Positions 36,402 through 55,385 of a stretch of DNA of 64,000 bases are shown one piece after another. A program made the position numbers and the translations under genes. The notes beneath the pieces were generated by a model. The model ran no database searches. It saw only the letters and a program-made list of their open reading frames with translations, and was not told the origin of the DNA. How positions within the stretch are numbered: position 1 is the stretch's first letter; every line of letters starts with the position of its first letter. The DNA is taken from contig NZ_CP032096.1 in the NCBI RefSeq assembly GCF_004786015.1, positions 186,001 to 250,000 of the forward strand, written 5' to 3'. Origin of the DNA: Hydrogenovibrio crunogenus (GTDB taxonomy: Bacteria > Pseudomonadota > Gammaproteobacteria > Thiomicrospirales > Thiomicrospiraceae).

Positions 36402-37517
36402 TTAACGGATATTGCATGGCAAGCTCTCCAGGACAGTATTCGACTCTATTTTCACGAACCGTTTCTGGAGTTCAGGCTCCTGAAGTACAAGTCGAAGTGC
36501 ACAGCACTAATGGTCTGCCCAGTTTGTCAATTGTCGGGCTTCCTGAAGCATCCGTTAAAGAAAGTCGTGATCGTGTTCGCAGTGCATTGCTCAGCAGCGG
36601 GTTTTCTTTACCCCCAAAACGTATTACCATTAATTTAGCGCCAGCCGATATTCCCAAGCAAGGTGGTCGTTATGATCTCCCGATCGCTTTGGGGATATTA
36701 AAGGCCACTGGGCAATTAAATGCGGTTCGCTCCTTAGCAGAGTATGAGTTTTTGGGCGAACTGGCTTTGAATGGTGACGTTCGTCCTGTGCCAGGTGTCT
36801 TACCTGCCGTGATTCAAGCTAAAAATGTAGCGCGTACTTTGGTTGTCCCGGAATCGAATTTAGAGGAAGCCGGCTTTGTCGATGGTGCCGAAGTTTATGG
36901 CGCGACGACGTTGCTGGAGGTCTGCCAGTTTTTGATGTCACCAGAATCCACTTTGTCACGCCCTTCTACGCTAGATATAACCGCTGCAAACTATGCTGAA
37001 GATATTTCCGATATTAGAGGGCAAATTCAGGCAAAAAGAGTGTTGGAAGTGTGTGCTTCAGGGGGACACTCTTTGTTAATGATGGGCCCTCCCGGATCGG
37101 GTAAAAGTATGTTGGCTTCGCGGTTAGTGACCTTATTGCCTGCGTTAGATTTGAGCCAGGCTATTGATGTTGCGTCAATTCATTCCGTTGCCGGGAAAAC
37201 AATTTCAACGGATCAGTTTTTTCAAAGAAAACTGGTTCAACCCCACCATACCGCCACGGCAGCGGCAATGGTTGGAGGCGGGACAGGAGGGGTGCCCAAA
37301 CCGGGCGCGATTTCTTTAGCGCACCACTCCATTTTATTTTTAGATGAATTGCCGGAATTCAATCGTTCTGTACTGGAAGCTTTGCGAGAGCCTCTTGAAA
37401 CTCGAAGAGTTGAAATCGCCCGGGTCAACCAGAAAGTGACCTACCCGGCTTCTGTGCAATTGGTTTGCGCAATGAACCCAACGCCTTCAGGTTATTTTCA
37501 GGATGATCCCTTGGGGC

Positions 37518-37522
37518 GTTGT
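37518..37522. repeat. Target-site duplication, left copy
   Basis: GTTGT directly precedes the left transposon end and is repeated at 55381-55385 directly after the right end. A 5-bp duplication is the known product of Tn7-type transposition. Removing one copy and the element restores the comM frame. Confidence 0.95.
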
Positions 37523-37587
37523 TGTCAACTCCAAAATTATTTGATAATTACAAAAATAAATGAGAATCTACAAAATTATTTGAGAAT
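37523..37587. repeat. Left transposon end with three contiguous TnsB-type sites
   Basis: After TGTCAACT, three direct repeats of a 20-bp unit follow head to tail: 37529-37548, 37548-37567 and 37568-37587. The third, CTACAAAATTATTTGAGAAT, is closest to a consensus; shared core letters are ACAAAA, T and TGA-AAT. The tight packing resembles the end of Tn7 that carries overlapping TnsB sites. Binding by TnsB is inferred from position and from copies at the opposite end. Confidence 0.8.
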
Positions 37588-37652
37588 AAGGTTCTGTTTT
37601 AATTTGTTTCAAATTTTGCTTCTGTTCAGCCTTTTAAATCAAAGGAGGCTGA

Positions 37653-39455
37653 GTGGCTGAAAAATTCAAATTAAAAAACTTTGCCGAACAGTGTGAACCA
37701 GATAAGTTTTATAGATTAGATATACTGAGGGGCGTTTCTTTTGATGAAGCTTATGACCCTTCAATGCCCTTCCGGACGCTTATAGTCAATTTTTCTTTAT
37801 ATAAACCTTTTTACCAGTCACTAGAAGAAATTAAAGCCATTCCTGCAAAAGATATTTTCAAATCTTTTCAAGTTGAAAATGACGTATTAGAGTTAAAAGT
37901 TGATGTCACTAATCAGATATTTTTGAAGCCAGGTACCGTATGGAAAAATGGTTCTCCTGTTTGGGAACCATCTGAATTTTTTAATGTTTCAATTAATCAA
38001 TCGCAAAGTAAATTTGTAACGTTAAGCTCAGAAAAAAAATCTGGAACGAAGATGCCTTTTATTCAGAATGGGTTGGGTGTTCAGTTCGTAAAATATCCCA
38101 ATTCAAAAATAAATGGGAATACAGTAGATATTCTTATCCCAACTACAGAAATTATTAGATATTACTTCTCTGGCTCAACTTATTTCACTCAGCAGTTATT
38201 TAATGGAGCTTTAAAGTCATTTGAGTATTATCAGCAAGCAAATAAGCTTTTTTATGACTTTAATTTTGATAAAACGACTAAGACGGTTTACATTTGGCTT
38301 AAAAGGCATTGCTATGACTCGGATGCAGTACTGATAGCTCGAGCGTTAGCAGATTCTGAGGCAATGAAAGCAATGAGTTATATTTATGCTTCACTGACTA
38401 ATACCAAGAAAAATTTTAACTTCACAGAAGCATGTCCTAGAACCAACCTACCGTTTTCTGATGGAACTGATATGGAGGTTTTAGGGCAATGGCTCCCTCC
38501 AAGGGATGGTGAAGAAGAATTCACGACCTTCATTGTTCGAACAATCGAAAAATGCGAGCATTCTTTTCCATTTCATCGAGTTGAAATTGAATCACTTGAT
38601 TCCTACAAATCAAGTGGTGCTATTGATAATGAGTCCTCTCCAAAACCATCCTACAAGAAAGAAAGGAAAGATAATTCTGAACAGCCTGAATTAACTCAAG
38701 ATGAAAAGCCGACAAATGGCATTGAAGCTGAAGAGCTGGAGTTTTATCAACAAAGGTTTAGTCACTTACATGGTGATATGATTACGAAAGTAAAAAAAGT
38801 TTCTGAAAAAGAAAAAGTGCGTCGGTTTAAAGAGGAAGAAGACGCTACTGATTCTAATGACGGGAGTTCTTTGCCTGGTGATTATTCAAAAGATAACAAT
38901 CTTCAAGCTTGGCAAAATCGAATCAATGATGCTGAGCCTATTCCTATTTCAGATCGTATTACATCTGTATCTAATGCTGTATCAATAATCCTTAATAAAC
39001 GACAGGATTTATCTGCTCAGGAATTACCGGTTGGTTGTACTGATTATTCATCCCCCTTTAGGCTTTATGATTTTGAACGACCAAAGGGAAAATCAGGCAA
39101 TTATTCTTGGGATACTGTAGTAGGCAGGCAGCGTAAAGCTCTGTTTTTAGCTATTTCAAATCAAAAAGGCCAAACGGTTTATTTATTGGAGATTGAAGGA
39201 AAAGAGAAGGTTGGTTTTTCTTTATTCCTTTTTGGCGGGTACCAAGGAAGGAACTTAGATGAGTCAAATGGTGCCCGATCTTTGTTGTTTCAAATAGCGA
39301 ATAACTCTGGAAATGGTATTGCAAGCAAGGTTCTCAATGACTTTGAATTCATATCCAGCTTGAAACATATCGCTACTGATGATGATAGTTTTGTTGATCG
39401 GGTACATAGAGCGATTAATAGTGTATTTAATGATTTAGATGGTAGGGTTTCTTGA
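37653..39455 (+). CDS. TnsE-like transposition protein
   Basis: 600 residues, somewhat longer than Tn7 TnsE (about 540). GTG start preceded by AAAGGAGG. The N-terminal 300 residues include IPTTEIIRYYFSGSTYFTQQLF and SDAVLIARALADSEAMKAMSYIY, which align in pattern with the middle of TnsE. Residues about 320-430 are a charged, Ser/Glu/Lys-rich linker. The C-terminal part (RKALFLAISNQKGQTVYLLEIEG, then SLFLFGG) resembles the TnsE C-terminal DNA-binding domain. TnsE directs Tn7 to replicating or conjugating DNA through the sliding clamp. Unlike Tn7, this gene is at the end opposite tnsABC. The assignment is by memory of the family, without an alignment. Confidence 0.55.
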   Translation: MAEKFKLKNFAEQCEPDKFYRLDILRGVSFDEAYDPSMPFRTLIVNFSLYKPFYQSLEEIKAIPAKDIFKSFQVENDVLELKVDVTNQIFLKPGTVWKNGSPVWEPSEFFNVSINQSQSKFVTLSSEKKSGTKMPFIQNGLGVQFVKYPNSKINGNTVDILIPTTEIIRYYFSGSTYFTQQLFNGALKSFEYYQQANKLFYDFNFDKTTKTVYIWLKRHCYDSDAVLIARALADSEAMKAMSYIYASLTNTKKNFNFTEACPRTNLPFSDGTDMEVLGQWLPPRDGEEEFTTFIVRTIEKCEHSFPFHRVEIESLDSYKSSGAIDNESSPKPSYKKERKDNSEQPELTQDEKPTNGIEAEELEFYQQRFSHLHGDMITKVKKVSEKEKVRRFKEEEDATDSNDGSSLPGDYSKDNNLQAWQNRINDAEPIPISDRITSVSNAVSIILNKRQDLSAQELPVGCTDYSSPFRLYDFERPKGKSGNYSWDTVVGRQRKALFLAISNQKGQTVYLLEIEGKEKVGFSLFLFGGYQGRNLDESNGARSLLFQIANNSGNGIASKVLNDFEFISSLKHIATDDDSFVDRVHRAINSVFNDLDGRVS

Positions 39456-39758
39456 GTGCCTGCTAAAACAATAGCCATTGCTGCCATAATTGCAGTCAGT
39501 GGTGTCACTAATGACTCTCCAAAGGAGAAAGTCCTTTTTGGTGGCGATATGGACCGTATTGCAACGGAACGCTGCATTGATGATGACAGAGATATTTACA
39601 AGGGTTTTACGCTCACATCCGATTATAAACTAGGATATTTTAAGGTTAACTGTCAGATTCTTGAGACAACAACTGGTGATTATTATGCAGCCAAAGGTGT
39701 GTATCATAAATACTCGGATATTATGAAAACGTTAATTGTATTATTTGAAAAGCGGTAA
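39456..39758 (+). CDS. Small protein of unknown function
   Basis: 100 residues, not recognised. The GTG start directly follows the stop of the TnsE-like gene, with GGTAGGG upstream. Residues 3-16 (AKTIAIAAIIAVSG) are hydrophobic and could be a weak signal or anchor; the rest contains two cysteines (in TERCIDDD and KVNCQILE) that might pair outside the cytoplasm. No catalytic motif is visible. A true gene is likely because of its tight spacing, but the start is uncertain. Confidence 0.5.
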   Translation: MPAKTIAIAAIIAVSGVTNDSPKEKVLFGGDMDRIATERCIDDDRDIYKGFTLTSDYKLGYFKVNCQILETTTGDYYAAKGVYHKYSDIMKTLIVLFEKR

Positions 39759-39774
39759 TTTACGGAGGTTTACA

Positions 39775-40005
39775 ATGTCTAAGAAAAGCACTCATGTGGT
39801 ACCAAATAAAGAACGTGGTGGTTGGGATATTCGGCAGTCTGGTTCAGAGAGGTCGTCCGGTCATTTTGATACTAAAAAAGAAGCTGAATCTCGTGCAAGA
39901 GAAATAAGTCGTAATCAGGAAACTGAATTGATGATTCACAATAAAGATGGAAAAATTGCCGAAAAAGATAGTCATGGCAATGATCCCCATCCTCCGAAAG
40001 GATAA
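39775..40005 (+). CDS. DUF2188 protein
   Basis: 76 residues from the ATG at 39775, which follows ACGGAGG; a longer frame from 39736 is unneeded. It matches DUF2188: HVVPNKERGGWDIRQSGSER, then FDTKKEAESRAREISRNQ and ELMIHNKDGKIAEKDSHGND. These small cytoplasmic proteins are common in mobile and accessory regions; their role is unknown to me. Six bases before the next small gene. Confidence 0.85.
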   Translation: MSKKSTHVVPNKERGGWDIRQSGSERSSGHFDTKKEAESRAREISRNQETELMIHNKDGKIAEKDSHGNDPHPPKG

Positions 40006-40011
40006 AGTTTT

Positions 40012-40356
40012 ATGATGAGTTTTAAAGATTATCTCGCTTGTGATGATGTAAATAAAATTACCGATGTTACTGACCAATTTCATTACGAAGACATTAGTAA
40101 TGAGCATAGAGATGAGGATAGCCAATTAGTTTCTTGTGGTCAGGATGATTCATATAATGAACTCAAGTATATTTATAATCAACATTTGTCTGTCTATGTT
40201 GAGGAAGGAGATATAACTAAGGAACAAGCCATAAAAGCTCTTTGCGAGGTTTGTCATATGTTTGATTCAGAGCGGCGTAATCGTGACGAGTTCTATCATA
40301 AGTTGTCTAGACTTCTAGAGGTGGAAGTTCCATTTCCCGGTTGCAGAGGCAGATAG
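40012..40356 (+). CDS. Acidic small protein of unknown function
   Basis: 114 residues, not recognised. Acidic and soluble; YNELKYIYNQHLSVYVEEGDITKEQAIKAL and RNRDEFYHKLSRLLEVEVPF are probably helical. It starts with two consecutive methionines after AAGGATAAAG and lies six bases after the DUF2188 gene, so the two are probably one transcript. No motif suggests an activity. Confidence 0.6.
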   Translation: MMSFKDYLACDDVNKITDVTDQFHYEDISNEHRDEDSQLVSCGQDDSYNELKYIYNQHLSVYVEEGDITKEQAIKALCEVCHMFDSERRNRDEFYHKLSRLLEVEVPFPGCRGR

Positions 40357-40366
40357 AAAATTTTAC

Positions 40367-40816
40367 ATGTTTTATTTTCATCAGTTTTTTATATTCCTTG
40401 TTTGGAGTATTGGTTCATTAAATACCTCTGTTGCTTCTGAGAAAAGTTATGGTTCGGTTACTGTGGATGAAGTCACTAGTATTTATGATGGTGATACATT
40501 TCGTGTAAACATCCATTCATGGCCTAAAATTGCAGGGAAAAGGATGCCTGTCAGAATAAATGGCATTGATACGCCAGAGTTAAGGGCAAAGTGTCAGTTT
40601 GAAAAAGACCTTGCAGTTAAGGCCAAGCAGTTTACTGTTTCAATGCTTAGATCAGCTAATAAGATTGAGTTGATGAATATTAAGCGAGGGAAGTATTTTC
40701 GAATTATAGCTGATGTTCTGATTGACAGAAAAGATTTGGCTAAAAGTCTAATTGCAAAAGGTTTAGCTGTTAAATATGACGGTGGTACTAAGGTTGATTG
40801 GTGCGAAAAAGACTAA
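40367..40816 (+). CDS. Exported staphylococcal-nuclease-like protein
   Basis: 149 residues with an N-terminal signal (FFIFLVWSIGSLNTSVAS). The SNase core is evident: VTSIYDGDTFRV with calcium ligands Asp41 and Asp43, VRINGIDTPELR with catalytic Arg63 and Glu71, and KYFRIIADVLI with the second catalytic arginine Arg112. Two cysteines (Cys76 and one near the C-terminus) may pair in the periplasm. It should cut DNA or RNA outside the cytoplasm. Possible roles are destroying incoming DNA or nutrient scavenging. The gene is transposon cargo. Confidence 0.88.
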   Translation: MFYFHQFFIFLVWSIGSLNTSVASEKSYGSVTVDEVTSIYDGDTFRVNIHSWPKIAGKRMPVRINGIDTPELRAKCQFEKDLAVKAKQFTVSMLRSANKIELMNIKRGKYFRIIADVLIDRKDLAKSLIAKGLAVKYDGGTKVDWCEKD

Positions 40817-40874
40817 GTTAATTAATGAGTTATTTTAGAATCGAGTTTAATAAAAAATTTTATAGGGTAAGTTT

Positions 40875-41792
40875 GTGACATTTCATATTCCTGACGAAGG
40901 ACATCATTTCTTTGATCAAACTGTTGGTAAAGTTAATACTTTGATTTCCAAAAAGGTATGGGCTGAAATTGAAATGCTTTCTTTTAGTGCTTGGTTAAGA
41001 AACTTTAAAACAGATGAAGAAAAATATTTTGCAGCTCATCTCTTAGACGCACTGATTTTTCGAAGTAATAAAATGATACATTCCAGTTATTTCGATATTT
41101 TCAATCAAAGAATTCCGAAGGCATTAAGAGATAGTGGGCTTCAAAATTTAATAAGAGATTATTCAAATAATTTACGCAGAAATATTGAATTTCCACTAAA
41201 GTTTGTAACTGTAGAAAAAAGCTCTCCTGGCGCCAGTGGCGATTTGTTTATACGTTCTTTTAGAAGGCATTTGAGAATTAAACAACATCATGTAATAAGC
41301 TTAGATACAGCTGTCCAGCAAGCGGATACGATTGATGTTCTGGTTTTCATTGATGATATTACTGGTACAGGGCGTCAGTTTTCAAAGTGCTTGAATAAGG
41401 TGTATGCAAATAGTGATAGAAGTTTGTATGAAATTTTTAGGCATAAACTAATTATTTATTGTCCTCTTATCGGCCACACAAAAGCTATAAACAAAATAGA
41501 TGCTAACTTTCCTTCAGTTCAAACTTTGCCTGTAGAGATATTAAGTGATGAACATGGATTTTTTTATTCAACAAATGGAAAATTCAGGGATGGGGTAAAT
41601 TCCATCGATGATGCTAAAAACTTTTATAAAGACATATTTTATAGACGAGGTTTAAATCCAGGTTATACTTTTGGGTATAAAAAGCAGGCATTAACATGCT
41701 TTTTTTCAAACTTTTCTTCTCCAAATAATAGCCTGCCAATTTTTTATCATGATGAAGATTTAGATAAATGGAACCCTCTTTTTGGACGATAA
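40875..41792 (+). CDS. Phosphoribosyltransferase-like protein of a conflict system
   Basis: 305 residues. A clear PRPP-binding loop, VFIDDITGTGRQ (158-168), follows a hydrophobic strand, as in type I phosphoribosyltransferases. The N-terminal half is helical and unlike biosynthetic enzymes. It resembles the PRTase-CE family, recalled from comparative work on prokaryotic conflict systems where it pairs with an ORC/CDC6-like ATPase, exactly the next gene here. GTG start after AGGGTAAG. Stop and next start are contiguous. It may be the effector, acting on nucleotides or another target; that is inference. Confidence 0.7.
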   Translation: MTFHIPDEGHHFFDQTVGKVNTLISKKVWAEIEMLSFSAWLRNFKTDEEKYFAAHLLDALIFRSNKMIHSSYFDIFNQRIPKALRDSGLQNLIRDYSNNLRRNIEFPLKFVTVEKSSPGASGDLFIRSFRRHLRIKQHHVISLDTAVQQADTIDVLVFIDDITGTGRQFSKCLNKVYANSDRSLYEIFRHKLIIYCPLIGHTKAINKIDANFPSVQTLPVEILSDEHGFFYSTNGKFRDGVNSIDDAKNFYKDIFYRRGLNPGYTFGYKKQALTCFFSNFSSPNNSLPIFYHDEDLDKWNPLFGR

Positions 41793-43811
41793 ATGATGAA
41801 CGAAAATATCAAAGATGCATTCACAAAAAATCGAGCCGAATACTATCCTGATGATGTATATGGTTTGTTTGCAATCCCTCCATTTGTAAAGAATTATAAC
41901 TTTATCAATACAAACCAATCATGGCGGATTGTTGGGGCTAGAGGAACTGGCAAAACGATGTTTTTAAAATCACTTTGTCATGCCACGGTCTTCTCGCCGA
42001 AAAAAAATGATATTAGTTTGGAGTCAATTAAAAATATTGGTATTTATTGGAGGCCTGACACACAGTTGTGTTCTCTAATTACCGATAACTGGCTAGGTTC
42101 GCAATGGAAAATGGCTTTCTTGCATTATTTAACTTTAATTTTATTGGAAGAAATTTATTACTCATTAAAAAGTATTCAGAAATCAAAGCTTGAACTTGAT
42201 GGAAAGGAATTACTCAAGATAGAACTAGATCCAGTTTTAAGTGAATGTTTTGAGCAAACAATTAAATGTATATCTGATTTAAAAGATTTTTGTAACCAAC
42301 AAAAACTAAAGCTATCATTTTGGTTGAATAATTATAATAGTGTTGAGCAGCCAAAGTTTCTATCCCCATTTCCTTTAATTCCGACAATTGTTGATGACAT
42401 TTCTAGGCAAGTAAGTGAGTTGTATGAAATGTCTTATATGGTTTATGTTGATGAATACGAAAATCTTGCTGCTGGTCAGCAAGCATTAATTAATGATTTT
42501 ATTAAGCATAGCAGACCGAGACTTAGATTCAGTTTTGCTATGAAAAAATACGCCGATATTTGTTGGGAAACAAGTGGTACCGAAAAAATAAGTGAGACCC
42601 ATGATTTTAGAACAATAGATCTAGATGGCGAAACTTCTAGTGAAGAATTCAAATTAATGGCAGCTGAGTTTGTTGTTTATAGGTTGAGGCATGTCGGAGC
42701 AATCGACTCAGATCCAGACTATGATAATCCCGAAATTCTTACAGAAGAAAAGCAATTGAGTTTGAGATTGGATGATTATCGAGTTCAAAAATTTGTTGAT
42801 ATAGCATCAAAAATTTTTCCATCATGTAGCTCTAGCGATGTTGCGGCAGAAATTATTAATGATAAGACTTTGAGAAATAAGGTGTTGAGCATAATAAAGC
42901 TAGGCTTGAAAAGTTCTGGCATTCAGGGAAATGCTATTAAACCTCAGGATTTTATTATTGATAGTCAACCAGAAGCATCAATCGTTTCTGCGGCGATCCT
43001 TAATAGAAAAAAACAAGATCCGCAGCAGGTATTGAATGATCTTATCGAGTGGGCAGGTGGCAATAAAGAAAACAATCAGTTTAAAGGGTGGATTGAAAAT
43101 AATATTTTCGGCGTAATTTTTATGATTTACAAATCCTTTCCTAAACGAACTTGTCCCTTGTATGCGGGGTTTGACCGGTTTTGTATTTTGTCTAGAAAAA
43201 ACATGAGACATTTTCAAGAGTTATGTCATGAAGCACTTATTGAGTCATTATCAGAGTCGGGTACTAAGTTTTCTTCAATACCAATTAACATACAAGCGCA
43301 TGCAGCTCGTAGAGTTAGTGAAAAGAATTTGATAGAAGTTGTTCCTAGTCTCGGCCAACATGGTGAAAGCCTAAGAAATTTTGTAGCGAGATTGGGGATG
43401 ATATTTTCCGTAGCTGCAAAAAGATATTCTCAAAGCGAACCAGAAATAAATCACTTTTCTATTAACATTTCTTCAGGATCAAGTTTGCCAATTGAATTGC
43501 AGGATCTGATTCGAAGTGCGAAAGTTTGGAATGTTTTGTTTGAAGAAAATAAAACCAAAAGTAAATCAGATGATATTGCAGATAAAGACTATATTTTAAA
43601 CCCTATTTTTGCGCCCTTTTATGGGATTAGTTACAGAAAAATTCGGAAGATCGATTTTAATGAGAATGAAGTAAATGTTCTTTTTCTTGGAGGTGAAGAG
43701 GAATTTAACAATATTTATAAGCGTTATTTATCACGCTGGAAGAATGCTGAAGTTGAAGTCGAAGTTGAAGTTGGTAAAGTTATTTCTCATCAAGACCAAA
43801 TCGATTTCTAG
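41793..43811 (+). CDS. ORC/CDC6-like AAA+ ATPase
   Basis: 672 residues. Walker A is GARGTGKT (48-55) and Walker B VYVDEYENL (Asp220-Glu221), in a STAND/ORC-CDC6-like layout: IVGARGTGKTMFLKSLCHATVF and SFAMKKYADICWETSGTE (sensor region). Residues about 400-640 form a separate C-terminal domain that I do not recognise. The gene starts directly at the stop of the PRTase-like gene and is followed 11 bases later by an unknown gene. It may act as the sensor or switch of the system. The family name is recalled from descriptions of conflict systems. Confidence 0.7.
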   Translation: MMNENIKDAFTKNRAEYYPDDVYGLFAIPPFVKNYNFINTNQSWRIVGARGTGKTMFLKSLCHATVFSPKKNDISLESIKNIGIYWRPDTQLCSLITDNWLGSQWKMAFLHYLTLILLEEIYYSLKSIQKSKLELDGKELLKIELDPVLSECFEQTIKCISDLKDFCNQQKLKLSFWLNNYNSVEQPKFLSPFPLIPTIVDDISRQVSELYEMSYMVYVDEYENLAAGQQALINDFIKHSRPRLRFSFAMKKYADICWETSGTEKISETHDFRTIDLDGETSSEEFKLMAAEFVVYRLRHVGAIDSDPDYDNPEILTEEKQLSLRLDDYRVQKFVDIASKIFPSCSSSDVAAEIINDKTLRNKVLSIIKLGLKSSGIQGNAIKPQDFIIDSQPEASIVSAAILNRKKQDPQQVLNDLIEWAGGNKENNQFKGWIENNIFGVIFMIYKSFPKRTCPLYAGFDRFCILSRKNMRHFQELCHEALIESLSESGTKFSSIPINIQAHAARRVSEKNLIEVVPSLGQHGESLRNFVARLGMIFSVAAKRYSQSEPEINHFSINISSGSSLPIELQDLIRSAKVWNVLFEENKTKSKSDDIADKDYILNPIFAPFYGISYRKIRKIDFNENEVNVLFLGGEEEFNNIYKRYLSRWKNAEVEVEVEVGKVISHQDQIDF

Positions 43812-43822
43812 GATTTATTTAG

Positions 43823-44785
43823 ATGAAGTTTTTATGTGATCAGAAAGCGATTTCCATTGAAGGAATTAATTTAAGAAGTGATTACGACTGCGTGTTCATT
43901 GGAACTCAAGTTGATTTAGATGACCGTTCGGAGTTGATAAATCGATACATTGTAGATGTCTATTCAGAGCAAAGAATATTTAAGGTTTCATATGAAAGTC
44001 AAACTTTTCAAATGATTATTAATGGAGTTGAATACACTCTTCCGGAAGCAGTTGAATATATAAAAAGTATTTCAGGAAATCGTGTGCTTATTGAATGCAC
44101 AACAATCGACTTTGTTGAACTTACACTCATATTGCGAGAAGTCTACGATAAAGTAGACTCAATTGACTTTTTATATTTAACACCAGATGCTTATGGTAAA
44201 GCCTTATCTCCATCAATTAGTAGACACGATTTTCGCTTAAGTGACTCTTTCAGTAAGTCTATGCCGGTGCCAGGCTTTACCCCAATGCTTGGTTCTCATG
44301 GCAGCAAGGTCAATTTAGTTGCGTTTGTTGGTTTTGAAGGAAGTAGGCTTGGTAGAGTTTTGAATGATGATGAAAATTCAACAATAAAAAAGCTAATGAT
44401 TGCTTTCGCAATTCCCCCATTCCAATCTGGCTGGGAAAATCATTCAATTTTTCAACACACACAATTTCTCGAAAATAATGACTGTGATGAAGCTGAATTC
44501 ATTTCTGCGAACTCTCCTTTATCAACTTATGAGTTTTTATCGAAAAGAGTTGAGCCAACAATAGAAGATAGTGATGTCTTACAGTTAGCTGCCTATGGAA
44601 CTAAACCGTGTTCTATTGGTGCTTCAATTTATGCAGTTGAAAAACTGAATGAGCAGGCTAGTAGAATTGAATCTGGAAATTACTCAATGGGGTTGCAAGT
44701 GTCTTTGCAGTATGATTTTCCGAACAAATCGACAAAAAGATCATCAGGCATTGGACATTATTATTTGTATAGTTTAACGGTTTAA
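43823..44785 (+). CDS. Unknown third gene of the PRTase/ATPase operon
   Basis: 320 residues, not recognised. It starts with alternating strands and helices (YDCVFIGTQVDLDDRSELI, NRVLIECTTIDFVELTLILREV, IDFLYLTPDAYGKAL) that look Rossmann-like; a middle segment NLVAFVGFEGSRLGRVL and a C-terminal SMGLQVSLQYDFP follow. No membrane segment or nuclease motif is visible. Its stop lies within the end of the convergent methyltransferase gene (12-base overlap). A substrate-recognition or nucleotide-sensing subunit is possible but unproven. Confidence 0.6.
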   Translation: MKFLCDQKAISIEGINLRSDYDCVFIGTQVDLDDRSELINRYIVDVYSEQRIFKVSYESQTFQMIINGVEYTLPEAVEYIKSISGNRVLIECTTIDFVELTLILREVYDKVDSIDFLYLTPDAYGKALSPSISRHDFRLSDSFSKSMPVPGFTPMLGSHGSKVNLVAFVGFEGSRLGRVLNDDENSTIKKLMIAFAIPPFQSGWENHSIFQHTQFLENNDCDEAEFISANSPLSTYEFLSKRVEPTIEDSDVLQLAAYGTKPCSIGASIYAVEKLNEQASRIESGNYSMGLQVSLQYDFPNKSTKRSSGIGHYYLYSLTV

Positions 44786-45973
44786 ACCGATTATAGGCAG
44801 GTTTAAGATGTCGCTGTTCGTTAGAAGTTTTGTACAGCTACCTTTTGAGTGAATGTCTCGCCAGCTTTTACTATCTTCGGTTTGTAGAGACTCAAAAACT
44901 ATAGGTGCAATTTTTTTAGGCAAATTTAATCTGAATACAGAATCTGTGATAACAGCATTCCCGTAAGTAATTAGAGCTTGATGTTGATGGCAACTACGGC
45001 CAATTCTTGGAATTAGAATATCGCTTTTTTTAGCAACGTGTTTTGCATTGTACCTTTGCATCAAATCTTCGCAGCCTTCTAGGCTAATGTCTTGAGTTTC
45101 AAATTCTTTAAAGGAGGAGCTATGAAAAAAAACAGTTTTATCATGTTCTAACTGTTTTTTTGTTTTGTTCCCACGGTCTAAAGAATAAATTACTTCCCCA
45201 AGCGAAGTGTATTTTTCTTTTAAAGCTTTGAACCTTTCTATTTGAGATAGGTATTTCACGTCAGCCCTTAAAACAGAATGCTTTTTATCAACGGTTTTGA
45301 TTTTGTTCACTTGACCGTTTTTTGAAATCGTACCAATTTGAATTTTTAAGTCTGGATTAATTGTTTTTTCACCCGACACTAAATATGTTCTGACTTCTGC
45401 TTCATCAAAATATTGCTCGTTAATTTCATAAATTGAGATGTTTCTAAGGTTCTTAAAAATATACGTTCTAACAAAGTCCATTTTCTCATTAGAAATGATT
45501 GACTCAGGAAGTATCAGAGAAACTCTACCCCCAATTTTTGTTGCTTCTATATATTTGGCAATAAAAATAATTTCAGCACGAATACTCGTTCCTATTTTTA
45601 ATATTTTTCCAGAATAGTTTCTTTCACAAATATCTGCTAATTGAGGTGTGACTTTTGTTTTTATAAATGGAGGGTTTCCTAATGAGATGTCGTAAAATTC
45701 TTTCTCAAATTCGTATAGTAGAGAATCTTCATTTCTAACATCCCAAGTGCACTGGGATTGCTTTAAATATTCAATATTTTTTGAATCAATATCATAAGCA
45801 TGAAAATAGCTGTTAACTAACTTCGCTTGAAGGGGTTTAAGTAATGAGCCGTGGCCACATGTCATATCAATAATTTTCAGAGGCTCTTTAGCTTCTGAAG
45901 ATATAACTAGTTCAGACATTAATTCACTGATGTATTCTGGCGTGTAAAATTGACCTAATTTTGATTTTTTCAT
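44774..45973 (-). CDS. N6-adenine DNA methyltransferase
   Basis: 399 residues of the gamma-class N6-adenine type. The X motif GQFYTPEYISELM opens the protein (7-19), SAM motif I is DMTCGHGSLL (36-45) and catalytic motif IV is NPPF (100-103). The C-terminal 170 residues should recognise the target sequence. Its stop overlaps the convergent gene by 12 bases; its start faces an HTH regulator across 93 bases containing an inverted repeat. It probably protects the sites cut by the nearby type IIG enzyme, as separate methyltransferases do in Eco57I-like systems. Confidence 0.88.
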   Translation of the reverse strand: MKKSKLGQFYTPEYISELMSELVISSEAKEPLKIIDMTCGHGSLLKPLQAKLVNSYFHAYDIDSKNIEYLKQSQCTWDVRNEDSLLYEFEKEFYDISLGNPPFIKTKVTPQLADICERNYSGKILKIGTSIRAEIIFIAKYIEATKIGGRVSLILPESIISNEKMDFVRTYIFKNLRNISIYEINEQYFDEAEVRTYLVSGEKTINPDLKIQIGTISKNGQVNKIKTVDKKHSVLRADVKYLSQIERFKALKEKYTSLGEVIYSLDRGNKTKKQLEHDKTVFFHSSSFKEFETQDISLEGCEDLMQRYNAKHVAKKSDILIPRIGRSCHQHQALITYGNAVITDSVFRLNLPKKIAPIVFESLQTEDSKSWRDIHSKGSCTKLLTNSDILNLPIIGLNR

Positions 45974-46000
45974 AAAAAAGCACGTCTTTTCATTTTATTT

Positions 46001-46060
46001 AATATGATTTTATCAAATCTATTATGTATAATCTACTAAAAATTATTATAAAATCATATT
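46001..46060. promoter_or_regulatory. Inverted-repeat operator between methyltransferase and HTH gene
   Basis: AATATGATTTTAT (46001-46013) and ATAAAATCATATT (46048-46060) are perfect 13-bp inverted repeats in the 93-base divergent promoter region. The right half ends six bases before the HTH gene ATG, so its occupancy would block that gene. A dimeric HTH protein encoded next door is the natural ligand. Confidence 0.6.
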
Positions 46061-46066
46061 TTTATT

Positions 46067-46438
46067 ATGCGAAATCATATAGATAAAGAGTCGTTAGAAA
46101 AAATTTGTGATCGCTTTTTGCAGGTCTCTGAAGATTGTTTAGGGTTGAACATGAAAACTCTGGCAGAAAAGCTGGGCTATACCAACCAATCGACGTTAAC
46201 TAAAGTGAGAAAACGAAAAGGATTTATTGGTCCGGATAAACTAAACCAATTTGGATCTTTAACCAATGAAAAGGGACAACATCCGAGCATCCACTTTATT
46301 ATTACTGGAGAAGAGCCGGTTTTTGTTGATAAAAAAATAAAGAGAATTGAAGATGATGAAATTGATTTGCTTCTAAATCGTCTTGTTAGCAAGCTTGGAA
46401 AAAATAAAGCTAAAGCTCTTTTAGAGCTTATTGTATAG
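46067..46438 (+). CDS. HTH regulator of the restriction-modification island
   Basis: 123 residues. An N-terminal helix-turn-helix (TLAEKLGYTNQSTLTKVRKRKGFIGPDKLNQF) is followed by a 50-residue helical tail that may dimerise. It is placed between a divergent methyltransferase gene and the restriction gene 32 bases downstream, like control proteins of type II systems. No good Shine-Dalgarno sequence precedes the ATG, and the operator half-site nearly touches it. The regulatory role is inferred from place and fold. Confidence 0.7.
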   Translation: MRNHIDKESLEKICDRFLQVSEDCLGLNMKTLAEKLGYTNQSTLTKVRKRKGFIGPDKLNQFGSLTNEKGQHPSIHFIITGEEPVFVDKKIKRIEDDEIDLLLNRLVSKLGKNKAKALLELIV

Positions 46439-46470
46439 GCTTAAAGAATAGTACTCTGGATAAAAATATT

Positions 46471-49400
46471 GTGAACAAAATAGAAAAAGCATTTAATCAA
46501 ATAAATACAAAGCGCCAAAAGCCTTGGTCTGGAGAAGAAGAGGTTAGATTAGCTTGGATTCAAGCAATTGAAGGAGCGACAGGGTTACATCTGAATGCCG
46601 AGCGTGATCGAAAAGATGCAAGCCTTAATCATGTCATTGTTGAATTTAAAGCTCCAAGATTATTTAACGGTAAAAAGACTAGCCCTAAATTTATTGAAGC
46701 AACAGAGCAGCGCTTACTTCCATATATTCAAACTGAATCACAAAAGACAGGTATACCTGAATCTGATTTTATCGGGATTGCTATTGATGGTGAACATGTT
46801 TGCTTTGCTCAGGTTGTAAATGGCCAGGTTCATTCTCAGCAACTTATTCCATTTTCTGAGTATGCCGTAGGGATAGTAATTGATGCCTTTATTTCTGACA
46901 CAAGAAAAGCATTAACAACAGAAAACTTGTTAGCTGATTTTGGTCATGGTTCTCCGGGTGCTAAAGAACTAATGCAAAATCTGTCAGATGGTTTGGCTAG
47001 TGAAATTCAGCAGCCAAAAAATAACAAAGTAAAAATGTTATTTGAAGAGTGGAGAACACTTTATGGTCAGGTAGCTGATATGTCAGTTCTTCAAGCTGAA
47101 GCGATTTCTAAAGAAATGTCTTTCACATGGAATGGTAAAGTTGAAGATTCGCTACCTGCAAGACTATTTGTCATCCATACCTATAACTCTCTACTCATAA
47201 AGCTAATTGCAGCTGAAATAGTCTCTGCACATGGATTAACATCTATTGAGTACCCAGCCCAAGCAATGGCTGCAATGCAAGACGATCAAACGCTTGTTAA
47301 TTCATTGGAATTTGAAATTGAGCGTTCCAAAATTTTTGAACAGGCCGGCATAAAAGGGTTCGTTGAAGAGGCAATATTTAGCTGGTATTTGGATATCATT
47401 AAACAGCAATTGGCGGCTAACGAAAACACTTTACTAATCTCATTAAGAAAGGTTTTATCTGTACTTTCTTTTTATAGTTTGACTCAGCTTTCAAACACCA
47501 GAGATGTCTTGAGAGACCTGTACCAAGGTCTTGTACCTGGAAAACTTCGCCAGTCACTTGGTGAGTTTTATACACCTGATTGGCTAGTAGATTTTACGCT
47601 ATCACAGGCAAATAAAGGTTCTTGGCTGGATAAAAGAGTGCTCGATCCAACAGCGGGGTCAGGAGCCTTTTTGATTGCCTTGATTCGCAAAAAAATAGCA
47701 GAAGCAAGAGTTAATAAGTGGAATGACTTGGAAACACTAGAGCATGTTTGTTCAACGGTATGGGGGTTTGATTTAAACCCTCTTGCTGTTCAAACAGCTC
47801 GTGTAAATTTTCTTATGGAGATTTCAGGGCTTTTAAAGTCATGCAAAGGCATAGACATTGAATTACCTGTACTACTGGCCGATGCTATTTACTCACCCGC
47901 ACAAAATCCGAAAGATAGTCAAAAAATTGTGCAGTATAAGATTGGTAGCCAGGTTGCTAAATTAGATATTTTACTTCCATCTGAGCTGGCGCTGAATCGT
48001 GAACGTCTTGATGATGTTTTTGCAAGAATGGGAGAGGATGTCGAATCAGATCTTGAGTTTGATAAGGTAGAAGAAAATTTAGTCAAATACGGTTATGTAT
48101 CAATTGAAGAAATGTCTGATTGGTCAGAGCCTTTATCGTATACCTACAACCAAGTATTAGAATTACATCGAAAACAGTGGAACGGGATTTGGTTCAGAAT
48201 CGTTCGAAATTTCTTTTGGTCTGCAACTGCAGGCGAGTTCGATTGCATTGTAGGTAATCCCCCCTGGGTTCGTTGGTCAAAACTTCCAGGTGCTTATCGC
48301 GATAGGGTGAAGCCAACCTGTGAAGACTACGGTATTTTTTCTAAAACGAAGCGTCATGGTGGTAATGAGTTAGATATTTCGGCCATGATTACATATGCAG
48401 TATCTGATAAATGGTTGAATGATGGGGGTTGCCTTGCATTTGTTATAACTGGTACGCTTTTCAAAAACCCATCATCAGCCGGTTTTAGAACCTTTAAGCT
48501 CGAATCAACTAATCCAGATTCCGCATTTCTTCAACCTATCCATATCGATGACTTTAAAGCACTGAAGCCATTTGAAGATGCTTCAAATCACACTGTTGTA
48601 TCGGTATTCAGAAAAACCAAAGTGCCTGCAGTATACCCCGTCCCGTACACAATATGGAATGCAAAAACGGGCCAGAAAAAAGCTATACCTCCAACAGTTA
48701 GTCTGTCTGATATGACAAATATAATTGAACCAGATTATAAGGAAGCATTTCCTGTTAGTGAAGATGGCTCACCTTGGGCTATTTTGAAGACTGGTAGGTT
48801 TGATGCAATCAAATATTTGTCGTCTGAGTGTAATTGGACACAGGGGAGAAAAGGGATTACAGCAGATTTAAATGGTGTCTATTTCGTTCCTATATTACAA
48901 GATAATGGAAAGCTTGTTGAAATTAGAAGTCGTCCAGAAGCTGGTAGAAAGGACATTGGAGTCGCCAAAACTCAGTGGGTTGAACCTGACTTGCTTTATC
49001 CTCTAATTAAAGGCGCTAGTGATTTTGAGCCGTGTTACCTGAAGCTTAAAGATCCGAAATATAACAAAGAGCGTCTCTATACCTTTGTCCCTAATAATGC
49101 CATTTCAAAAGAAGCGTATCAGGAATGCGAAGATAATTTGAACAGCCCAGTTCTCAAGAAAACTAAAGCTTGGTTTAAAGGATTTGAAACGTTATTGTTA
49201 GATCGTTCAACTTATCGCAGACAAATGAAGAACGCACCGTATCAGGCTGTTTACAATGTTGGTGACTATACCTTTAAACCTTGGAAAGTCGTTTGGCCTG
49301 AGATGTCATCAAGTTTTTACGCTGCCGTTGCAGCTTCTGATGATATGCCGGTAATTGGCGAGAGAGTTTTTATTCCAGATCATAAAGTTTATTTTGCTTC

Positions 49401-49686
49401 ATTTGACAATAAAGAAACGGCTTATTTCTTATGCGGTCTCCTTAATACAGAAACGGTTCGAGAATGGCTTGACAGCCACAATGTATCTATTCAGGTTGCT
49501 AATGTGTTTAAACATTTGTCATTGCCTATTTTTGATGACTCGAACAGTGACCATATCAATCTATCAATTCTTATAGAGCAAGTCCATGGAACGCATGATA
49601 AAAAAGCAAGAAGTAAACTTTTATCTAAGGCACTAAGTCTTGCAGAAAATATTTTATTAAAATGGAGTTCAAGTAAAACGATTTGA
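46471..49686 (+). CDS. Type IIG restriction-modification enzyme
   Basis: 1071 residues, fused nuclease and methyltransferase. An N-terminal nuclease-type domain has Glu58-x-Lys60 in NHVIVEFKAP (PD-(D/E)xK fold). A helical connector is followed by the N6-adenine methyltransferase: LGEFYTPDWLVDF from about residue 363, SAM motif DPTAGSGAF (392-400) and NPPW (596-599). The last 350 residues, including KIYFASFDNKETAYFLCGLLN, should carry target recognition. GTG start with a weak ribosome site. The enzyme cuts unmodified DNA and also modifies one strand; the adjacent N6-adenine methyltransferase may modify the other. Confidence 0.88.
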   Translation: MNKIEKAFNQINTKRQKPWSGEEEVRLAWIQAIEGATGLHLNAERDRKDASLNHVIVEFKAPRLFNGKKTSPKFIEATEQRLLPYIQTESQKTGIPESDFIGIAIDGEHVCFAQVVNGQVHSQQLIPFSEYAVGIVIDAFISDTRKALTTENLLADFGHGSPGAKELMQNLSDGLASEIQQPKNNKVKMLFEEWRTLYGQVADMSVLQAEAISKEMSFTWNGKVEDSLPARLFVIHTYNSLLIKLIAAEIVSAHGLTSIEYPAQAMAAMQDDQTLVNSLEFEIERSKIFEQAGIKGFVEEAIFSWYLDIIKQQLAANENTLLISLRKVLSVLSFYSLTQLSNTRDVLRDLYQGLVPGKLRQSLGEFYTPDWLVDFTLSQANKGSWLDKRVLDPTAGSGAFLIALIRKKIAEARVNKWNDLETLEHVCSTVWGFDLNPLAVQTARVNFLMEISGLLKSCKGIDIELPVLLADAIYSPAQNPKDSQKIVQYKIGSQVAKLDILLPSELALNRERLDDVFARMGEDVESDLEFDKVEENLVKYGYVSIEEMSDWSEPLSYTYNQVLELHRKQWNGIWFRIVRNFFWSATAGEFDCIVGNPPWVRWSKLPGAYRDRVKPTCEDYGIFSKTKRHGGNELDISAMITYAVSDKWLNDGGCLAFVITGTLFKNPSSAGFRTFKLESTNPDSAFLQPIHIDDFKALKPFEDASNHTVVSVFRKTKVPAVYPVPYTIWNAKTGQKKAIPPTVSLSDMTNIIEPDYKEAFPVSEDGSPWAILKTGRFDAIKYLSSECNWTQGRKGITADLNGVYFVPILQDNGKLVEIRSRPEAGRKDIGVAKTQWVEPDLLYPLIKGASDFEPCYLKLKDPKYNKERLYTFVPNNAISKEAYQECEDNLNSPVLKKTKAWFKGFETLLLDRSTYRRQMKNAPYQAVYNVGDYTFKPWKVVWPEMSSSFYAAVAASDDMPVIGERVFIPDHKVYFASFDNKETAYFLCGLLNTETVREWLDSHNVSIQVANVFKHLSLPIFDDSNSDHINLSILIEQVHGTHDKKARSKLLSKALSLAENILLKWSSSKTI

Positions 49687-49709
49687 GCAAAATCTTTACG
49701 GAGTGAAAT

Positions 49710-50351
49710 GTGAATGAATTAGCTGTTTTGATAGGCATAATACTTTTTCCAGGATTTATCTCAGCGATAACTGCTGAAAAAATTACTTCCCATGTTAAGC
49801 CCTGGGGTGCTTTGAAGTATGGGATCTATTCTTTTGTGCTTGGTGTTATGTCCTATGCTGTGATTCAAGCTGTAATATTGATTTGGCAAGTTATATTTGA
49901 GAACCCAGTTCAATATTATTATTTATCAGTCTGGTCTTTTATTTTCGATCCCTCATTAAAATTTGAACTTGCAGATGTTTTTTGGGCTACCATGATCGCA
50001 ATTCCGCTTGGTATATTAGCCGCGGCAATTGTTTATCATAAACGTTTAAATAGAATAGCTAAGTTTTTTAATGCGTCGTTTAAATATGGAGATGAAAATC
50101 TATTTAGTTATTTTTTGAGTGCAGAAGATACTGATTGGATTTATGTAAGAGATAAAGAAAAAGGTTTGACTTATCAAGGAAGGGTTGTGTCTTATTCAGA
50201 AAATGAATCTTTTCAAGAACTAGTTATGATGGATGTGACAGTGTTTGGGTATGATGATTCTGAAGAGTATTACTCCGTTCCAAAGTTATATTTATCAAAA
50301 AAATTGGGCGGTTTCTCTATAGAGTCTATTCCCAATGAGTTATTAGAATAG
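49710..50351 (+). CDS. DUF6338-like membrane protein
   Basis: 213 residues. Three hydrophobic segments: AVLIGIILFPGFISAITA, YSFVLGVMSYAVIQAVILI and FWATMIAIPLGILAAAIVY. The cytoplasmic tail from about residue 110 contains TDWIYVRDKEKGLTYQGRVVSYSENE, which resembles the DUF6338 family. GTG start after ACGGAGTG. It is followed by two tiny genes that end in the same Pro/Lys motif. The family recall is moderate; the function is unknown. Membrane proteins with small partners are common in defence islands, but I see no effector domain. Confidence 0.65.
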   Translation: MNELAVLIGIILFPGFISAITAEKITSHVKPWGALKYGIYSFVLGVMSYAVIQAVILIWQVIFENPVQYYYLSVWSFIFDPSLKFELADVFWATMIAIPLGILAAAIVYHKRLNRIAKFFNASFKYGDENLFSYFLSAEDTDWIYVRDKEKGLTYQGRVVSYSENESFQELVMMDVTVFGYDDSEEYYSVPKLYLSKKLGGFSIESIPNELLE

Positions 50352-50359
50352 GAACAGTC

Positions 50360-50494
50360 ATGAGCGATAAGATAAGACGAAAAGATGGTGGAAGAAACCC
50401 CGTAGATCGAGTGATTAATGGTGTTGATAGAACAAAGCCGACGGATAGGATAAAACCTAATTCACCTCCACCTGCACCAAAACCCAAAAAATGA
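50360..50494 (+). CDS. Lys/Pro-rich microprotein 1
   Basis: 44 residues: starts MSDKIRRKDGGRN, has TKPTDRIKPNS in the middle and ends PPPAPKPKK before TGA. Very basic. AGGAACAGTC precedes the ATG, and the gene starts eight bases after the DUF6338-like gene. It is clearly related to the next microprotein. The shared sequence and spacing make a real gene likely. Function unknown. Confidence 0.65.
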   Translation: MSDKIRRKDGGRNPVDRVINGVDRTKPTDRIKPNSPPPAPKPKK

Positions 50495-50511
50495 GAATTG
50501 GAGATAAGTTA

Positions 50512-50625
50512 ATGAGTGATAAGACAGGTTTTAAAGATGGTCATACAAAGGGTCATACCAAGCCTACTAACAGCGAAAAAGTAAAGCCAAGTTCAGCGCC
50601 TCCGACTCCAAAACCAAAAAAATAG
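50512..50625 (+). CDS. Lys/Pro-rich microprotein 2, paralogue of microprotein 1
   Basis: 37 residues: starts MSDKTGFKDG, has TKPTNSEKVKPSS and ends APPTPKPKK before TAG. TTGGAGATAAG precedes the ATG, a better ribosome site than that of its paralogue. Ends four bases from the convergent tniQ stop. It shares with its neighbour the MSDK start, TKPT block, KP-S and PP-PKPKK end. Function unknown. Confidence 0.65.
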   Translation: MSDKTGFKDGHTKGHTKPTNSEKVKPSSAPPTPKPKK

Positions 50626-50629
50626 AAAG

Positions 50630-51772
50630 TTAATTTGTTTCCCTGAGATTTTTGACAAGTCTCACTGCCTGATTTAGGTTGATCTTCTTTTTTAACCGTG
50701 TTTGAAAATAATTAATGATGTTCTTTTTTTCAGTATCACATGTCAAAAAACGGTGTTCATGGATATTGAAGAAAAATGTGTCAGATACCCAAAATGGAAA
50801 TTCCAAATATGGCGTTTTTATCATGTGGGAGGACGTGTCAGTGATCTTACAAGAATTCACAAAAGTCTCGGGCCAATCCTGTAGCAAATGATAAATCATG
50901 ATGAATCCTGTGCGCCGTAAATTAATACCTAATCTTTCTGGTTCAATATTATGTCCTAGCGCTTCACGATGATGCATTTGTTGCAATTGCAACTCTCTCT
51001 TGAGATGAACAAATAGTCTTTTACCGTTAGAGCTACAAACAACAAATGAGAGTAATCTCCGGATACCCTCAAAGTAAAGATTAGAATAGCAAAAATCTAA
51101 ATTACCAGCTTTCCCGTACCCGGTCGTCGATTGAATAAAATTAACCCGATTGATTCCATACTCTTCTGAAGAAACGTCAATGTATTGAGTTTTTCTAAGG
51201 TCGAACCCACATTTTGAACAATAGGCAATATCCTCTGGGTGGTAAAGAATCTCCCCTTTATGTTTTTGAAGTCTTTTAATGTCGATTGGGTTGTGACATT
51301 TAGGGCATCTGTCATGCATCTGAACAGAATGAAATGGACAGCATGTCATAAAGCCCAGACGCCAGCTTTTTCTAAAATATGGTTGATTTCCATCTTCCGA
51401 TAGGCAACAAGGGCAGTATTGGAGACCAAATGATTTTTTTCGGGTGCGTACTCCCAAAGGCATAACCCATTTTACTTGGGGAGTTTTTTCAGTCTGATTG
51501 TAAAAATAACTGCATGAAGCATAGAAGGTTTGGCTTTGAATTTTATTTTCATCTATGCCTGTATTTTTATTGAGAGTAGTGATTTTTTTAGGGTTTAGAA
51601 AGACATCAATATCTCCCTTCCAAGTATCAGTATCCTCAAAAATCAAAGTGGAAAGTTGGCTTGGTTTTATACCATATTGAAGCGCATTTCTGGCAATCCA
51701 AGACGATACTAGTTCATCATTAAATGGCAGATCGAGTAGGTATCGAATAGTTTTTATCTCATGCGCTTCAAT
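50630..51772 (-). CDS. tniQ: TniQ-family target-selection protein (start uncertain)
   Basis: TniQ proteins link TnsC to a target site; here this should recognise comM. About 380 codons are open if counted from the ATT at 51772. The conserved TniQ start LPFNDELVSSWIARNALQYG lies upstream of the first usable TTG at 51646, so that TTG cannot be the real start. Zinc-finger cysteines are visible: CPCC, then CCPFH and CPKCH, then CSKCG. No in-frame ATG, GTG or TTG occurs between the tnsC overlap and 51646. It may start at ATT (after AGGAAAGAG), at CTG 51730, or be made by -1 frameshifting from tnsC. Confidence 0.85.
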   Translation of the reverse strand: MEAHEIKTIRYLLDLPFNDELVSSWIARNALQYGIKPSQLSTLIFEDTDTWKGDIDVFLNPKKITTLNKNTGIDENKIQSQTFYASCSYFYNQTEKTPQVKWVMPLGVRTRKKSFGLQYCPCCLSEDGNQPYFRKSWRLGFMTCCPFHSVQMHDRCPKCHNPIDIKRLQKHKGEILYHPEDIAYCSKCGFDLRKTQYIDVSSEEYGINRVNFIQSTTGYGKAGNLDFCYSNLYFEGIRRLLSFVVCSSNGKRLFVHLKRELQLQQMHHREALGHNIEPERLGINLRRTGFIMIYHLLQDWPETFVNSCKITDTSSHMIKTPYLEFPFWVSDTFFFNIHEHRFLTCDTEKKNIINYFQTRLKKKINLNQAVRLVKNLRETN

Positions 51773-52665
51773 AACTCTTTCCTTTTTGATGCTGGTACCA
51801 GATTTAATTCGCCAAACACAGAATCATCAATGCAAGGCAAATCATGCTTAATTGCATAAGTAGCCAACTGTTTCATAATGAGTACTACTTCACCAATCAG
51901 GCCGTCACTAAGATAATGCAATTGTTCTATGTAGGGCTTTTTATAAAGATAAGAAGGTTCTTGCAAGGGCAGTCTTGTTTCAATAGATGCAATTAACTGG
52001 GCAAATTTAACCCGATCCCCTTTGTTCTCAAACTTCCACCTTTCAAGTACCTCAACCTGAAAACGATTTGCCAGCTGTGAATCAACTTGGATTGCATGAA
52101 AAGCATCTTCGATACCGGCACCAATAATAGGAATCTTTAAAGTGTTACTTAGGTCTTTAATACTGTTCAAAAATCCTTTTTGAGCATTATAAGAACCCGC
52201 AATGATGTGTTGAATCTCATCAATGATCAACATTCTGGTTTTGCGAGTTTGCATTGCCCTGATTGCCATTTGTCTTTTAACTTCCAAACTGTCGTTTTTG
52301 GCATAAGGAATAATCATTTCTTCGAGCAAGCGAATTAAGAAAGCGTTTTCATCCGGTTTGGCTGGAGCTGAGATGAAAACAATTGGTTGAACATTCGTGT
52401 AAGTATCTTCATCAATTGACATTGGATAACGCTCAGCAAAGCGTTTCAGAATCTGAGTCTTGCCGTTATTGCTGTCACCTACAATTAAAAGATTTGGCAT
52501 TCTTTCTACTTGTGGATAGGAAATGAAGTCTTCTAACCGTTCTAGAATTTGTTGCGCTCTGGGGTATCCTATCCATTTGTCTTCATTAACGTATCTGATG
52601 CGTTCTTCCTTTGAGGCACTCAGTATGTCAAAAGCTTTATCAAGAAGATGGTCGTATTTGCTCAT
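51754..52665 (-). CDS. tnsC: TnsC/TniB-like transposition ATPase
   Basis: 303 residues, an AAA+ regulator that bridges the target selector and the TnsAB transposase. Walker A is GDSNNGKT (63-70) and Walker B MLIIDE (145-150), followed by IQHIIAGSYNAQKGFLNSIKDLSN and the sensor region IPIIGAGIEDAFHAIQVDSQLANRFQ. Its length is close to TniB and the short TnsC of Tn6022-like elements and below Tn7 TnsC (about 555). Its start overlaps the end of tnsB by four bases; its 3' end overlaps the tniQ frame. Confidence 0.93.
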   Translation of the reverse strand: MSKYDHLLDKAFDILSASKEERIRYVNEDKWIGYPRAQQILERLEDFISYPQVERMPNLLIVGDSNNGKTQILKRFAERYPMSIDEDTYTNVQPIVFISAPAKPDENAFLIRLLEEMIIPYAKNDSLEVKRQMAIRAMQTRKTRMLIIDEIQHIIAGSYNAQKGFLNSIKDLSNTLKIPIIGAGIEDAFHAIQVDSQLANRFQVEVLERWKFENKGDRVKFAQLIASIETRLPLQEPSYLYKKPYIEQLHYLSDGLIGEVVLIMKQLATYAIKHDLPCIDDSVFGELNLVPASKRKELLKRMR

Positions 52666-54593: not shown

Positions 54594-55260
54594 TGATCTT
54601 ATCCTCGAAATGATAGCCCTTTAACCAGGTAAGTTGATTCATATTGAGCGGTATAGATAAGTCCGTTAGGACGAGTTGATTTGCGATTGCATACCAGAGA
54701 GTATTTAGGAATTCCGCTTGTTCCATCTCATTGGTAGAACATAGTGCTAAAAGTTCCTTGATTGACGCAGGTTGCCCTCTGGATAAAATTTTTTGAATGG
54801 TTGCCAGCTGATATTCTTCGTATGGACGGTTTTTGTATGGGAGTAAAAAGGTGACATTTTTTAAAAATGGTGTGTTAATTTCTTGTTCAGTCCATATCTT
54901 AAAGCGCGTGTTAGGTTCTGATTTTAGTTCCTGTATCGCAGCCTTGAATTTTGGCTTTAATTTATCCCAATCTTTTTTAAGATCATTTCTGTATTTAACT
55001 TCGACATACAGTGATAACCCATCTTTGAACTTAATCAAAATATCTGGCGTATAATGTCTTTTTTTACCATTGTGGGTGAATTCAAATCGTCTTGGCTGTG
55101 TTTTGAATTTCTCAACTTGTTCGTCAAATTCACACAAAAGTAGGGCATTGCGTTCAAGGCTAGCTTCAAAGTGAGTATATTCATCACTTTTATCACTGTG
55201 AACATAGCCTGTAATGTTACGATAGTTTAATGGAATTTTTCTTGCAGGCACGGCAAACAT
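54586..55260 (-). CDS. tnsA: TnsA endonuclease
   Basis: 224 residues. Cuts the 5' ends of the element so that, with TnsB, it moves by cut and paste. Catalytic residues fit the restriction-like fold: Glu36 (ASLERNALLL), Asp73 (YTPDILI) and Glu87-Val-Lys89 (LYVEVKYR). The C-terminal helical domain (RGQPASIKELLAL, LNTLWYAIANQLVLTDL) should contact TnsC. A TnsB-type repeat at 55259-55278 touches the start codon, suggesting the operon is controlled by transposase binding. Confidence 0.93.
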   Translation of the reverse strand: MFAVPARKIPLNYRNITGYVHSDKSDEYTHFEASLERNALLLCEFDEQVEKFKTQPRRFEFTHNGKKRHYTPDILIKFKDGLSLYVEVKYRNDLKKDWDKLKPKFKAAIQELKSEPNTRFKIWTEQEINTPFLKNVTFLLPYKNRPYEEYQLATIQKILSRGQPASIKELLALCSTNEMEQAEFLNTLWYAIANQLVLTDLSIPLNMNQLTWLKGYHFEDKINE

Positions 55261-55380: not shown

Positions 55381-55385
55381 GTTGT
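55381..55385. repeat. Target-site duplication, right copy
   Basis: GTTGT, identical to 37518-37522, directly follows the transposon end. In the intact gene only one copy would be present, encoding the end of Arg-Cys. Confidence 0.95.

Follow-up and report, generated by a model that had tools for sequence, protein, structure and literature searches.

A comM fragment reads in frame through the end of a Tn7-like transposon onto the start of a divergent tnsE in Hydrogenovibrio crunogenus

Why should a Tn7-like transposon keep one of its tns genes apart from the others, at the end that faces the host gene it has cut, and could that gene be read from the host gene? This question is raised by a transposon inserted in comM of Hydrogenovibrio crunogenus. 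The window, that is, the whole stretch of DNA analysed (64,000 nucleotides, C1:186001-250000 of a 2.45-Mb genome), contains this transposon at 37523..55380, with the ends TGTCAACT and AGTTGACA and the target-site duplication GTTGT (left copy, 37518..37522; right copy, 55381-55385). Its TGT...ACA ends and 5-bp target duplication, together with Pfam matches to TnsA N and C, Mu-transpos_C, TniB and TniQ, place it among the Tn7-like elements. The comM gene, which encodes a YifB-type AAA ATPase, is split after codon 369 into a 5' fragment (36416..37522, + strand, 369 codons, frame intact) and a 3' fragment (55386..55814, + strand), and joining both host flanks regains an intact comM frame. An ORF that we take to be ubiK-like ends 14 nt upstream of comM. 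The genes for the endonuclease TnsA (54586..55260), the transposase TnsB (52662..54593), the TniB-type AAA ATPase TnsC (51754..52665) and TniQ (50630..51646) lie on the minus strand at the right end. tniQ is listed with a TTG start, and on the minus strand of 51646-51754 its conserved N-terminus stays open back into tnsC with no ATG, GTG or TTG; tniQ either uses a rare start codon or is impaired.

At the left end, the comM frame runs on into the transposon. The ORF 36416-37660 (+ strand) consists of the 369 host codons up to 37522 followed by a read-through extension (37523..37660) of 45 sense codons and a TGA stop (37658-37660). Two exact copies of CAAAATTATTTG, at 37532 and 37571, are presumed TnsB sites. 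The stop lies over the GTG start of a gene of 600 aa on the + strand (37653..39455), giving an 8-nt overlap, GTGGCTGA, at 37653..37660, and the Shine-Dalgarno (SD) sequence AAAGGAGG stands beside it at 37641..37648. The first-pass annotation had described the 45-codon extension, its stop at 37660, the overlap with a GTG at 37653 and a sequence site next to it, and all of these coordinates are correct. A 100-aa ORF (39456-39758) begins directly after the stop of the 600-aa gene and is kept at the same place in G009 with 72% identity.

The same annotation had called the 600-aa protein TnsE-like, and structural comparison bears out the label. Searches of Pfam, NCBIfam, PADLOC and PDB sequences gave no name for it, and the TnsE family was absent among its Pfam matches up to E 5. 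Four PDB chains, designed proteins by name, matched about 47 residues of the last helix (E 0.0015-0.006) and were taken as chance. However, residues 426-600 gave an AlphaFold model with pLDDT 73 and pTM 0.75, for which the first seven Foldseek matches were all C-terminal domains of Tn7 TnsE (best E 0.008, probability 0.99). Compared with solved TnsE structures (PDB 5d16, 5d17, 9d5l), the C-terminal model reached Z scores of 11.4, 11.1 and 10.3, the next row being 6.9, at a sequence identity of 10-15%. The full-length model (pLDDT 43) was too poor for a structure search or for judging N-terminal PriB-like SSB domains. Furthermore, a profile of the window's clade matched the proteins at the tnsE position of ten other elements, including those of A. 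baumannii and those adjacent to lipA, with a probability of 98.7% and E 3e-16 over residues 81-519. Thus, judged by its modelled C-terminal domain, which has a TnsE-type fold, the 600-aa gene is a divergent tnsE. Its product is presumed to select replicating or conjugal DNA and, by analogy, may act as TnsE of Tn7 does. A tblastn search of a plasmid collection with this protein found no relative.

We propose that expression of tnsE is wired to transcription and translation of comM, the left end being built for frame-matched read-through, and we give this reading a probability of about two in three. Homing would fix both the site and the orientation of insertion, so that the reading frame at the left end would be predictable. 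Ribosomes on the cut comM would then run through the transposon end and terminate over the tnsE start, and TnsE would be made from the comM transcript by termination and reinitiation, that is, by translational coupling. A translated transposon end would shield the transcript from Rho, and the minimum version of the proposal is that a translated, Rho-protected read-through transcript carries tnsE. If this is true, control by comM would explain why tnsE is separated from the remaining tns genes and placed at the end facing comM. Two pathways are open to Tn7-like elements, the first leading to a safe chromosomal site and the second to mobile plasmids; with tnsE under the control of the very gene just cut, if that is so, the choice of home site and the control of the exit pathway would be one design.

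Relatives of the element were collected by an order search, a genome scan, comM searches and fetched stretches. The scan of genome contigs gave 3 loci only; among the comM matches listed, 26 entries in which comM was split or matched weakly were taken further. Copies of one locus were counted once (L001/L015, L002/L012, L005/L014/L054, L006/L053). Left out of the counts were loci at contig ends (L072, L101, L102, L104), L103, in which the frame closes after 14 codons and the contig ends about 90 nt later, L093, whose left end is the same as that of L091, and comM interruptions in which the fetched stretches gave no tns match (L097, L098, L100 and L105, the last, in G239, from one side only). 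Insertions were found at codon ~369 of comM in the window, G009, G011, G022, G037, G039 and Cycloclasticus (L013), at codon ~289 in the TnsF-type elements of G014, G031, G052, G056 and G218 and also in G034 and G181, an A. baumannii record and a Halomonas record, and at a third site, codon ~314, in G199.

The open frame recurs at two of these sites. Among the matches listed, 12 non-redundant left ends have tnsE as the first gene, and in 9 of these comM can be read without a stop as far as the start of tnsE. The upstream stop falls at or over the downstream start by 8 nt in the window, 26 in L012, 8 in L053, 23 in L054, 10 in L068, 8 in L069, 8 in L070, 4 in L071 and 4 in L092. The first-pass annotation had proposed checking whether relatives keep the overlap, and it is kept in 4 of 5 elements that share the window's comM site and in 5 of 7 that use the second. 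L092 says little, because it is GC-rich and both its right end and one of its alternative frames are open, and tnsE of L071 is frameshifted in a draft contig. The three exceptions have the comM stop 21 nt before the tnsE ATG (Cycloclasticus L013), 11 nt before tnsE (Halomonas L094) and 82 nt before it (A. baumannii L091, with an identical left end in L093). The comM 5' fragment is itself stop-free in all nine coupled elements (283-375 codons upstream) and broken in two of the three uncoupled ones (p=0.045; this and the following p-values are post hoc and rough, as rows are related by descent). The fragment is intact in L091, and the A. baumannii elements are examples of a tnsE that has been kept in comM although the overlap is missing.

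Several controls were compared with this pattern. Alternative frames of the same segments were open in 1 of 24 cases (p=2e-5); counted by cluster, the comM frame was open in 5 of 7 and alternative frames in 1 of 14 (p=0.0055). When dinucleotides were shuffled, the frame stayed open in 2.45% of trials with the window taken by itself and in 1.2-18% of trials for individual elements, and with one row per cluster (5/7 open) the shuffle test gave p=4e-5. At the right ends, 1 of 14 had no stop in the comM frame over 130 nt (p=0.0006); the comM alignment starts early in the window, L055, L064 and L091, which makes the frame there approximate, and the right end of the window element is closed either way, as a TAG occurs in frame some 50 nt in from the end. 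Left ends in comM with another first gene were never open to that gene (0/4, p=0.019). In L047, tnsE is preceded by 1.4 kb of inserted DNA resembling a toxin-antitoxin pair, and the comM frame stops immediately; in L067 (G014), a cargo ORF comes first and the frame stops in a tandem repeat ahead of it; in L096 (G199), a tnsE fragment match (L106) lies beside tniQ instead and the frame stops after 6 codons; and in L099, a TniQ-like gene comes first and the frame stops after 5 codons. The repeats of L067 form a run of TTTTAGAAG-type tandem units that separates the first gene from the transposon end. These tests for an open frame beyond chance are moderate to good support, not proof, and, as far as sequence can tell, the overlap conservation and the frame, end and first-gene controls support the earlier idea of tnsE being fed by translation of comM. 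We infer that tnsE is in fact expressed more strongly when the upstream frame is translated.

The open frame could instead have arisen by chance and constraint, if presumed TnsB repeats happen to be stop-free in the inserted frame and a short gap to tnsE leaves a functionless overlap. The ends at codon ~369 do have much of their first ~70 nt in common, and beyond these the chance of an open frame in a single element is 0.12-0.64. However, the distal segments alone were stop-free in 9 of 11 rows tested (p=0.002), and elements of one site share just 39-69% identity in their distal left-end DNA, so that the open frame has lasted longer than the sequence itself. Elements at codon ~289 have the same pattern with unrelated end sequence, whereas the frame is closed at right ends and at left ends that begin with another gene, and we consider a functionless overlap unlikely. 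Somewhat more room, although still on the unlikely side, is left for a narrower version of the main reading, in which the open frame merely prevents Rho polarity on a read-through transcript and tnsE starts from its own strong SD. In the window, AAAGGAGG could serve tnsE without coupling, the stops of L094 and L013 fall short of tnsE by the few nucleotides given above, and, of four elements adjacent to lipA, three have a related tnsE on the lipA strand, 42-52 nt downstream of that gene. Nevertheless, stop-start overlaps of 4-26 nt in nine elements exceed what polarity relief needs, and so does the predicted SD pairing in several overlapping elements. Structure prediction pairs most of the SD in the window, L012, L053, L069, L070 and L071, and the start in L054; in the window, a predicted mRNA hairpin (37622..37656, + strand, arms 37622-37635 and 37643-37656) covers the ribosome-binding site and the GTG. 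This hairpin was marginally better than shuffles (p about 0.04-0.05), which was too weak for it to be kept as main evidence. Rfam gave one sub-threshold match, taken as chance.

A promoter within the left end could also drive tnsE independently of comM, and the A. baumannii elements, which keep tnsE with comM stops far upstream, would fit this. The first-pass annotation had named a strong terminator or an independent promoter inside 37523-37652 as what would speak against coupling; a scan of 37300-37900 for consensus-type sites found neither a terminator-like site nor, on the + strand, a sigma70-like promoter. By eye, TTGTCA-N15-GATAAT can be read at 37522-37548, with a spacing outside the range of the scan, but the string is absent from some of the five ends at codon ~369. 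Independence would moreover leave the kept frame unexplained, and a separate promoter is thus improbable. It had further been suggested that natural competence induces comM and, through comM, tnsE, at the time when foreign DNA enters. According to passages of PMC10293859, ComM acts in recombination of transformation-acquired DNA in other species. However, nothing found here points to competence regulation of comM, and the TfoX domain (PF04993) had no match in the genome of the window while it matched in 2 of 14 control genomes. Passages of PMC11406308 tie TnsE of canonical Tn7 to replicating conjugal DNA, which it prefers; the DNA of transformation is single-stranded and of another kind. Competence-linked induction of tnsE is therefore unsupported and very unlikely.

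If tnsE is coupled to comM, a further possibility, which we raise tentatively, is home-site sensing. tnsE would be translationally silent unless the element sits in comM in the right frame, with the left end serving as a frame-matched adaptor; only the homed chromosomal copy would make TnsE and leave towards conjugating plasmids, while other copies would stay quiet. Such an adaptor would have been maintained, or have arisen more than once, at two comM sites. As to the main reading, the position of tnsE behind lipA agrees with a more general tendency for tnsE to follow the gene at the home site. The lipA-adjacent elements (L059-L063, in G008, G012, G028 and G030) form a third Tn7-like group with a related tnsE, and in at least two of them the ORF after tnsE is presumably Vsr-like.

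In the three elements of the window's clade with both ends readable (window, G009, G022), tnsA, tnsB, tnsC, tniQ and tnsE are the only genes common to all. An A. baumannii TnsF query found no match in the window element or in genomes G009, G011, G022, G037 and G039, the last four of which are drafts. The TnsF-less comM clade comprises the window (50630-55380), L047, L050, L051, L052 and L054, with TniQ proteins of about 340-390 aa. Because this clade is without TnsF, its comM selector would have to be TniQ, TnsE or an unseen factor. The genome of the window has a second, TnsF-type Tn7-like core away from comM (G000 C1, ~863-869 kb; L056, L057), beside short tniQ and tnsA remnants of the window's clade and a transposase-like ORF. 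In G014, a TnsF-type comM element (L048/L049) has a window-type tnsE and a tniQ fragment, and is either a hybrid or a nested element. As cargo, the window element carries three consecutive genes of PRTase-CE, ORC-CDC6-like and CARF6 type, in the orientation of comM (40875-44785), likely a defence cassette, and a Type IIG restriction-methyltransferase (46471-49686). The G022 element has the same PRTase-CE, ORC-CDC6-like and CARF6-type genes and also has a methyltransferase and a small gene in common with the window.

The place of tnsE at the comM left end, and its identity in kind, are already published: passages of Faure et al. (2023, PMC10293859) describe Tn6022-type comM elements with TnsABC-TniQ-TnsF and a divergent TnsE near the left end, and passages of PMC11406308 report TnsE homologues as almost universal in comM-targeting elements and mechanistic information on TnsE as confined to prototypic Tn7. 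These passages of Faure et al. hold no mention of comM read-through into tnsE, and literature searches, mainly of openly available papers and including passages of PMC10293859, PMC11406308 and PMC8649781, found no report of it. Like the Tn6022 type, the window element sits in comM with its tnsA end facing the comM 3' fragment and a divergent tnsE beside the 5' fragment. Unlike that type, its clade is without TnsF and uses codon ~369 rather than ~289 for insertion. The TnsBs of this clade cluster separately, being 56-81% identical to one another and 35-39% identical to those of the TnsF type. In prototype Tn7, tnsE is within the tns operon (passages of PMC10293859), whereas in the window it lies on the opposite strand at the far end, the C-terminal domain fold of its product being like that of the prototype. 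As for the junction itself, its geometry is that of translational coupling. In bacterial operons, coupling has the upstream stop overlapping the downstream start, and the ribosome-binding site may be in a hairpin. Here, in contrast, a host gene cut short serves as the upstream cistron, and stop and start overlap only once the element has inserted at the homing site.
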